From a bacterium (lineage in GTDB: Bacteria; Joyebacterota; Joyebacteria; Joyebacterales; Joyebacteraceae): a stretch of 31,387 nt of DNA. Made by a program: the position numbers and the translations under genes. A model generated the notes under the pieces. That model was not told where the DNA came from. It worked only from the letters and a program-made list of their open reading frames with translations, and made no database searches. The first letter of the stretch is position 1, and each line of letters starts with the position of its first letter. Location of the stretch: the NCBI GenBank assembly GCA_025774935.1, contig JALGZK010000029.1:1-31387 (forward strand). Direction: 5' to 3'. Positions 1-27,563 of this stretch are shown here, one piece after another.

Positions 1-89
1 GGGAGCAGGCGGCGGAGCTCGTGCGCAACGGTCAGCCCCCCGAACGAGCCCCCCAGAACAGCGATCCGCGTCCGCTTCGTGAGGGCCAT
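1..89 (-). CDS. NAD(P)/FAD-dependent oxidoreductase, N-terminal fragment (runs off the window)
   Basis: Reading the minus strand from an ATG at 87-89 gives 29 residues before the window edge. They contain a Rossmann dinucleotide-binding start, RIAVLGGSFGGLTVAHELRR, with the glycine pattern GGxFGG. This is typical of the sulfide:quinone reductase / type II NADH dehydrogenase group of flavoproteins. A good ribosome site (AAAGGAG, 7 nt before the ATG) supports the start. The rest of the protein, including catalytic cysteines that would separate SQR from NDH-2, is outside the window, so the substrate is open. Upstream lie a putative promoter (395-423) and the 80-nt hairpin element (289-368). Confidence 0.72.
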   Translation of the reverse strand, partial: MALTKRTRIAVLGGSFGGLTVAHELRRLL

Positions 90-288: not shown

Positions 289-368
289 CTATGTGCGTCG
301 TTTGGTCGGGGCGAGAGGTGGTCAACCTCTGACTTCCTGCCCTCGGGCAGGGATGCTCAGCTGACTGC
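289..368 (-). ncRNA. 80-nt two-hairpin element, copy A (candidate leader RNA)
   Basis: Read on the minus strand it runs from GCAGTC (368) to CACATAG (289). It contains hairpin 1, CCTGCCCGAGGGCAGG, then AAGTC, then hairpin 2, AGAGGT-TGACC-ACCTCT, followed by CGCCCCGACCAAA. Copy B at 26468-26547 on the plus strand has the same 80-nt length with 8 differences by my alignment. Both stems are fully identical; two of the differences fall in the hairpin 2 loop. No Rfam family is recognised by eye. It could be a riboswitch-like leader, a small RNA or a dispersed repeat. Confidence 0.55.
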
Positions 369-394
369 GGGAGCCTCCAGCTACGAGGAACTCC

Positions 395-26214: not shown

Positions 26215-26411
26215 CCACTCAGCACGAGCTTCCCGCCGTTCTTGACGGCGGAAGGGGACGTACGTACCGCACCCCCCTGGTTCGGGTGCGCCTCCACCGC
26301 GCGGGCTCGCCCGACTGGAGTCGCCCGACGAACCGGCGTATCGAGCGAGCCGTGGCTCTGCCTCCGGTGGGACGACACAGATCGGTCGCGCCGGGTGAGC
26401 TCTCCTCATTC
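26215..26411. other. Intergenic, hairpins only
   Basis: No gene is supported. Two short hairpins are visible: CTTCCCGCCGT/ACGGCGGAAG (one bulge, about 26228-26254) and CGCACCC/GGGTGCG (about 26268-26291). Neither is followed by a T-run. Confidence 0.4.
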
Positions 26412-26440
26412 TTGACAACGAACTTCTCATATGCTAAGCT
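26412..26440 (+). promoter_or_regulatory. Putative promoter upstream of element copy B
   Basis: Consensus TTGACA (26412-26417), 17-bp spacer, TAAGCT (26435-26440), in locally AT-richer DNA. The 80-nt element begins 28 nt after the -10. Confidence 0.6.
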
Positions 26441-26467
26441 CCTTATCACCGCACCAAGGGGCGTCTG

Positions 26468-26547
26468 GCAGTCCGCTGAGCACGCCTGCCCGAGGGCAGG
26501 AAGTCAGAGGTTGGCGACCTCTCGCCCCGACCAAACACCACACATAG
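26468..26547 (+). ncRNA. 80-nt two-hairpin element, copy B (candidate leader RNA)
   Basis: It runs GCAGTC to CACATAG with hairpin 1 CCTGCCCGAGGGCAGG, linker AAGTC, hairpin 2 AGAGGT-TGGCG-ACCTCT, then CGCCCCGACCAAAC. It is 90 percent identical to copy A (72 of 80 positions), and both stems are invariant. It lies between a good promoter and the Cys-rich secreted protein gene (start codon 204 nt downstream), so it is probably transcribed as part of that leader. No known riboswitch class is recognised. Confidence 0.6.
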
Positions 26548-26750
26548 CCGTGGCCACGAAGCACGGCCCATCCGGTCGCGCGGGAAGTGAGATAGGCGTG
26601 AGCGGAGCTGGTGAGCCTGCGGGTCTCGGCGCGTCGGTCGAGTTCGACCGGTTCGTGCTGCGCGCTGGTTCAGTCCTGGGCGATCCGGTCGTCAATGGCG
26701 TTCCGTAATCCGGAGGCGCCAGGAGCACGTCGCCAGACGGAGGTGGGATG

Positions 26751-27563
26751 ATGAAAGGGACACCAGCCGCGCTGACGGTCGCGTGCTTGGTCATCGCAGC
26801 TGCGAGCGGACCAGCTCACGAGGGCGGTGGCCGCCACACCGCCGGAGGCTGCAACCACACGCACCATGCAGGCACGAACGTGCAGTGTAACAACCCCGGT
26901 CAAACCTGCACCCCTCCGGGGGGCGGGGTCGGAACGTGCAAGGACGTCAAGGGGTCCTCCGGCATCGTGGACTGGCGGGACTGCAAGTGCGTCAAGAACA
27001 ACTCGGGCACAGAGAGTTTCATAACGACTGCCGGATGGTTCATGGTCGATGTCGATCCCCCTGAGATCCTGCCAGGCAGCACGAACGTCTTCACGATCCA
27101 AGACACGAGCTCCATGGACGCCATGAAGTTCTTGTTCGGCGACGGCGGCACCGTCATCGACAGCCTGGAAGGCGGCGCGTTCGGTCAGATGATGATCGCC
27201 TTCGACACCGTAGCGCCGCCCATCACCGGCACGGTACTGGACTTTCAGCTCAACTTCCCCTCCTACGACATCCTCGGCCACCCGACGGGCACGAACCACT
27301 GGGGGCTCGCGTCGGGAAGTCCACTGGAGGTGGTGTACGACTTCCATCACGATGCCTTCGTTGTCGAGAGCGGCGACGCACTGCTTCTCGAGGTCCACAA
27401 CGATCTGCTGCCCCCCCGATTCGCGTGGATGGCGCTGGCCATCCGTGACTTCGCTCCGGGAAGATCGGCGTTCATGGTCACGGAGGCAGAGGAGCTCCCC
27501 GGCCTCACGGAGGTCGAGGAGAAGGAATGGGGATGGGGAACCATCAAGGCGCTCTATCGCTGA
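26751..27563 (+). CDS. Secreted Cys/His-rich protein with C-terminal WGTIKALYR tail, unknown function
   Basis: 270 residues. The ATG at 26751 (6 nt after GGAGGT) is preferred over the one at 26748. A signal peptide (TPAALTVACLVIAAASGPA) precedes a His/Gly-rich segment (HEGGGRHTAGGCNHTHH) and a six-cysteine module with QCNNPGQTCTPPGG, GTCKDV and DCKCV. Then comes a beta-rich domain of about 150 residues without a recognised family. The end EKEWGWGTIKALYR matches the tail of the protein at 7316-7945. It has its own promoter, the 80-nt leader element and a strong terminator. The gene sits between two copies of a 290-bp duplicated 3' end, in opposite orientation, so it may have been inserted there. 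Confidence 0.82.
   Translation: MKGTPAALTVACLVIAAASGPAHEGGGRHTAGGCNHTHHAGTNVQCNNPGQTCTPPGGGVGTCKDVKGSSGIVDWRDCKCVKNNSGTESFITTAGWFMVDVDPPEILPGSTNVFTIQDTSSMDAMKFLFGDGGTVIDSLEGGAFGQMMIAFDTVAPPITGTVLDFQLNFPSYDILGHPTGTNHWGLASGSPLEVVYDFHHDAFVVESGDALLLEVHNDLLPPRFAWMALAIRDFAPGRSAFMVTEAEELPGLTEVEEKEWGWGTIKALYR

Follow-up and report, generated by a model that had tools for sequence, protein, structure and literature searches.

The leader of the E. coli thrS mRNA contains an operator that mimics a tRNA and whose anticodon-like features are read by the synthetase. The element analysed in this work would likewise be a tRNA mimic within an mRNA leader, but it lacks an anticodon, its base 73 varies and its targets are not synthetases; the missing anticodon and the variable base 73 led us to reject a ProRS-binding operator. 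A tRNA unit is also found at an mRNA 5' end in the E. coli metY-nusA-infB operon, although metY, which heads this operon, is a working tRNA that decodes and is excised (PMC6511841), whereas our element appears unable to decode. The human mascRNA and menRNA differ from it in lying at the 3' end of long noncoding RNAs and in keeping the elbow that is read by RNase P (PMC11693755). The closest precedent is the yjdF riboswitch, a homologue of tRNA-Lys (PMC9142559). Our element differs from it in its origin from tRNA-Pro, in having no Rfam match, in lying much farther from the start codon and in preceding other genes, and pairing of its T-arm to the Shine-Dalgarno site is unsupported.

The element was found in a 31,387-nt stretch of DNA (the window) from a genome of the uncultured Ca. 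Eisenbacteria. Comparison with related sequences indicates that the 80-nt repeat noted there is part of an RNA structure evolved from a tRNA-Pro gene, and that it belongs to a family of mRNA leader elements of tRNA-Pro descent that is absent from Rfam. A preliminary description had reported two 80-nt copies of the same length with 8 differences, and this agrees with our alignment of 26468-26547 (+) and 289-368 (-), which gave 90% identity over 80 nt (E 6.5e-25 in a search of the 3.24-Mb genome). As it also stated, hairpin 1, the arms of hairpin 2 and the trailing stretch (CCTGCCCGAGGGCAGG, AGAGGT/ACCTCT and CGCCCCGACCAAA, respectively) are identical in both copies. The two hairpins it called invariant are so between the window copies, but their stems covary across the family, and its 80 nt cover the 3' portion of a 77-nt cloverleaf together with a trailer, the true unit starting 11 nt earlier in copy 1 (26457-26533); the promoter, from 26412, already lay inside the range it had noted (26412-26547). 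A domain scan of the main ORFs of the window detected no transposase domain, in line with the described lack of an adjacent transposase. The comparison with Rfam that had been suggested gave no credible match, either for the window at gathering scores or for 26380-26800 even at a loose threshold. Viral contigs contained no exact match to the element, and a search of the literature on Eisenbacteria noncoding RNA returned nothing relevant. The features of both copies are listed in Table 1.

Table 1. Coordinates of the two cloverleaf copies and associated features in the window
Feature	Position	Strand	Remarks
Sigma-70-type promoter	26412..26440	+	TTGACA 26412-26417, 17-nt spacer, TAAGCT 26435-26440; same layout in 13/14 members
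tRNA-Pro-derived cloverleaf, copy 1	26457..26533	+	77 nt, ends GACCA; 101.4 bits with model R1; 76% identity to own tRNA-Pro(UGG)
Acceptor-stem 5' strand GGGGCG	26458..26463	+	Pairs with CGCCCC 26523-26528
Shifted D-arm-like hairpin	26464..26479	+	Loop NGTCN
Hairpin at anticodon-arm position, CCTGCC-CGAG-GGCAGG	26485..26500	+	6-bp stem and tetraloop, no anticodon; hairpin 1 of the preliminary description
T-arm-like hairpin AGAGGT-TGGCG-ACCTCT	26506..26522	+	6 bp, 5-nt loop; hairpin 2 of the preliminary description
Acceptor-stem 3' strand CGCCCC and GACCA	26523..26533	+	
A-rich trailer AACACCACACATAG	26534..26547	+	Resembled in part of the family
Gene downstream of copy 1	26748..27563	+	271-aa protein, signal-peptide-like start, unmatched in Pfam and NCBIfam; start codon 291 nt from the first base of the element
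Cloverleaf copy 2, decayed	303..379	-	Acceptor 5' strand not fully paired, -10 box lost; intact orthologue in G001 (L040:868)
Start of sulfide:quinone reductase-like gene behind copy 2	1..89	-	Runs on into contig C40, pseudogene there

The descent from tRNA-Pro and the modified cloverleaf fold were not recognised in the preliminary description. Searches of relatives returned mostly a tRNA-Pro, at query positions 19-94, and comparison with tRNA-Pro shows the element to span a complete tRNA length, GGGGCG...CGCCCCGACCA; in its own genome, a tRNA gene on contig C2 matches it at 77% identity. The main family is 68-76% identical to the tRNA-Pro(UGG) of the window's genome (76% for copy 1), and is closer to it than to the other two tRNA-Pro or to tRNA-Gln. 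With tRNA-Pro(UGG) the element shares the sequence of the acceptor, anticodon and T stems, the length, the CCA end and the promoter spacing; GGGGCG/CGCCCC and N-CCA are retained in 13 of the 14 members, position 1 facing 72 is A.G in most copies and base 73 varies. It differs from its parent in the anticodon loop, the T-loop and G19, in its re-registered D-arm, and in the absence of a call by ARAGORN, which calls the tRNAs but none of the elements. The 7-nt anticodon loop is absent, and in most copies a tetraloop sits on a 6-bp stem in its place; the TTCRANY consensus of the T-loop is lost, the position reading TTNNNNA; and the GG of the D-loop is missing, G19 being C in the main family. Similarly, the Rfam tRNA model (RF00005) detected only one element of the window's genome, scoring it 16.9 bits where the cut-off is 29. 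Judging from the lost features, the element cannot act as a decoding tRNA. The changes at G19 and in the T-loop consensus remove the usual elbow pair, and if RNase P depends on reading the elbow, it would be expected to cleave the element less well than a tRNA (PMC11693755). Two element types stand apart from the main family. The one found before response regulators (L007 7310-7388 (-) and L125 4058-4136 (-)) is distinct, with 63-68% identity to tRNA-Pro and tRNA-Gln equally, and may have a separate origin. The G016 element preceding an HdrA/NuoE-like gene (L039 2585-2665 (+)), which keeps a tRNA-like D-stem with a longer loop and has tRNA-Pro as its neighbour in the tree, may likewise have arisen separately.

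The preliminary description inferred selection on RNA structure, and the copies in relatives, the covariation present in three of four helices and a compensatory change between orthologues all support it. The covariance model it proposed was built (R1). The cloverleaf scored on 12 aligned copies has 6 bp in its acceptor stem and in each of the hairpins at the anticodon and T positions, and 5 bp in a shifted D-arm; it pairs in 96.4% of cells, and double changes affect 8 pairs and 23 cells, compared with 7.1 cells in shuffles, none of 500 shuffles reaching 23; these copies are kin, so that the pair counts are not independent. Controls with the register slid score far below the cloverleaf. The T-arm-like hairpin is paired in 100% of cells, with double changes in 4 of its 6 pairs, and G019_C84 and G016_C2, two near-identical orthologues, differ in a T-stem pair that is U-A in one and G-C in the other, both sides being altered. 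In the anticodon-position hairpin the tetraloop is closed by C-G, U-A, A-U or G-C, depending on the family member, and the shifted D-arm is paired in 90% of cells, its pair 9-22 alternating between C-G and A-U; the canonical tRNA D-stem register, with only 25% paired, was rejected. The acceptor stem is paired in 95.8% of cells of the 12 copies, every failure coming from the decayed copy 2, and shows no double changes. Pairs that never vary make up 5 of 6 in the anticodon stem and 3 of 6 in the acceptor. Predicted minimum-energy folds often depart from the cloverleaf, those computed for whole leaders lack the acceptor stem of copy 1, and folding-energy z-scores were weak and uninformative at this G+C.

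A search of the parent genome and its relatives, as had been suggested, yielded further copies, two of them on contig C22 of the same genome. Model R1, a promoter-plus-acceptor pattern and an acceptor-plus-CCA pattern gave a combined yield of 14 elements, representing 11 independent loci in 5 of the 20 genomes of our phylum sample, all of which belong to one Ca. Eisenbacteria family. The window's genome carries five (26457 and 379 in the window, two on C22 and one on C2 before a response regulator), G019 four, G001 and G016 two each and G002 one; in the remaining 15 genomes this acceptor occurs only in ordinary tRNA-Pro or tRNA-Gln genes or in chance matches. When the pattern was scanned against the genomes of 84,980 species, 34 stretches were retrieved, and convincing matches to the model were confined to the Ca. 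Eisenbacteria family, namely to CSMAG_1944 (G019), CSMAG_1887 (G016) and Meg22_46_Bin_130 (G001). A Myxococcales sequence (L100, 24.5 bits) was inspected and set aside as too weak. The other model matches retrieved were ordinary tRNAs, and the loose tRNA-model matches in the window's genome were the tmRNA and tRNA-Sec; consequently no further element type was seen at that sensitivity.

Thirteen of the 14 copies are directly preceded by a promoter of the form TTGA[C/T]-17 nt-TANNNT, an arrangement that occurs at 0.12% of random positions, and all 14 copies, hence all 11 independent loci, are followed by a gene on the same strand. The distance between the first base of the element and the start codon of this gene is usually 190-330 nt, and about 506 nt for MoaA; start codons are uncertain at G001b, G019_C30, C22a and G016_C65. 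Among the downstream genes are some with redox or cofactor functions (type III sulfide:quinone reductase-like, MoaA with a molybdate transporter, HdrA/NuoE-like), and others coding for a small Cys-rich protein before HdrA/NuoE, a response regulator, a choice-of-anchor V protein and other secreted proteins. The secreted proteins behind two of the leaders (26748-27563 (+) and L036 606-1199 (-)) end in WGTIKALYR and WSRIKEMFQ, possibly a C-terminal sorting tail. At the level of sequence, then, tRNA descent, conserved structure, promoter, orientation and the link to a downstream gene are supported. Of the riboswitch-like leader or small RNA originally suggested, the leader in cis stands, given the promoters and the same-strand genes, and the lack of a convincing intrinsic terminator behind the element at the three loci scanned makes a free small RNA less probable; the riboswitch part is unsupported as regards Shine-Dalgarno pairing.

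Copy 2 is the sole copy with a broken acceptor stem and without a recognisable -10 box, both of which are intact in G001. The left end of the window overlaps contig C40 by 114 bp, and the reductase-like gene spanning this junction carries, in its C40 portion, a TAG and frameshifts as well as an internal deletion, its G001 orthologue being intact. From these defects, element and gene seem to have decayed jointly in the window's genome, although an assembly error in C40 is possible. The G019 orthologue of the reductase, 86% identical, has no such leader and sits behind another ORF (L165, G019:C300), which, judged by eye, resembles an ArsR-type regulator with a rhodanese domain fused or joined to it.

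How would the cloverleaf act? A cis-acting leader is well supported by the sequence comparisons, and the element probably controls expression of its downstream messages. We propose that a tRNA-Pro(UGG) gene was duplicated and converted into a 5' mRNA leader. Transcription from the sigma-70-type promoter would start about 10 nt upstream of the element, the first ~80 nt of the message would fold into a tRNA-like cloverleaf incapable of decoding, and transcription would continue, usually for another ~110-250 nt, into the coding sequence; transcription, read-through and an effect on expression are what we infer from this arrangement. The cloverleaf would work in cis on its own message, most likely constitutively, its tRNA-shaped 5' end boosting translation and/or shielding the message from 5'-end decay. 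This mode is ranked first since putting tRNA-like elements in front of a reporter increased its translation 2- to 6.3-fold in vitro (PMC9142559), and we give the proposal as a whole about an even chance. Against it, the distance to the start codon, ~200 nt, is apparently larger than in those constructs, the elbow contacts thought important there are largely lost, the orthologous gene of G019 manages without the element, and minimum-energy folds often depart from the cloverleaf, as noted above. It is also possible, if doubtful, that the tRNA-like fold is a regulated switch, either a riboswitch sensor or an operator bound by an RNA-binding protein, with redox, sulfur, molybdenum and surface genes under joint control. 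The redox or metal-cofactor functions of several downstream genes, the yjdF precedent and an alternative fold of copy 1 that competes with the cloverleaf would fit such a switch, but the downstream genes are mixed, a terminator or attenuator pattern was not found in three loci, and T-arm pairing to the Shine-Dalgarno site is no better for the element's own leader than for the others, its own ranking anywhere from 1 to 14 of 14 with no trend, so that a yjdF-like switch through this pairing is unsupported. We regard as rather unlikely a broader version, in which a duplicated tRNA gene became a regulon-forming RNA element: a signal sensed by the altered cloverleaf would co-ordinate redox and surface genes, and other tRNA copies (G016_C65 and the response-regulator types) might have been recruited separately.

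If tRNA-maturing enzymes cut at the cloverleaf, the product could be a small tRNA-like RNA and/or a message 5' end. The retained acceptor plus T-arm helix and 3' CCA end are consistent with such processing, as are the precedents of metY in the E. coli nusA operon and of mascRNA in MALAT1, mascRNA and menRNA sharing with our element a smaller D-arm, a longer anticodon-like stem and a compact loop. We nevertheless consider it unlikely, since the G19-C56 elbow read by RNase P (PMC11693755) is lost and position 1-72 is A.G in most copies. The clear tRNA-Pro descent and the lost decoding features would equally be expected of functionless, decaying duplicates of the tRNA gene, but the compensatory changes, the re-formed D-arm and lengthened stems common to two genera, the intact promoters and the consistent placement before genes make this very improbable. 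A REP/BIME- or MITE-like dispersed repeat, for which the mostly non-orthologous loci in two genera might speak, can hardly be credited: the preliminary description had asked whether copies lie at random as in REP-like repeats, and we found them in a single orientation relative to genes, behind promoters at a near-fixed distance, with 1-5 copies per genome and no integrase or transposase domain in the scanned neighbours.

Since a tRNA caller and Rfam both miss the element, similar leaders elsewhere could escape notice, and the present ones are a natural set on which to test whether a tRNA-shaped leader raises translation, as has been claimed. Within one bacterial family, a tRNA gene appears to have been caught becoming a family of mRNA leaders, and the parent tRNA can be seen side by side with copies that seem to work and one that has decayed.
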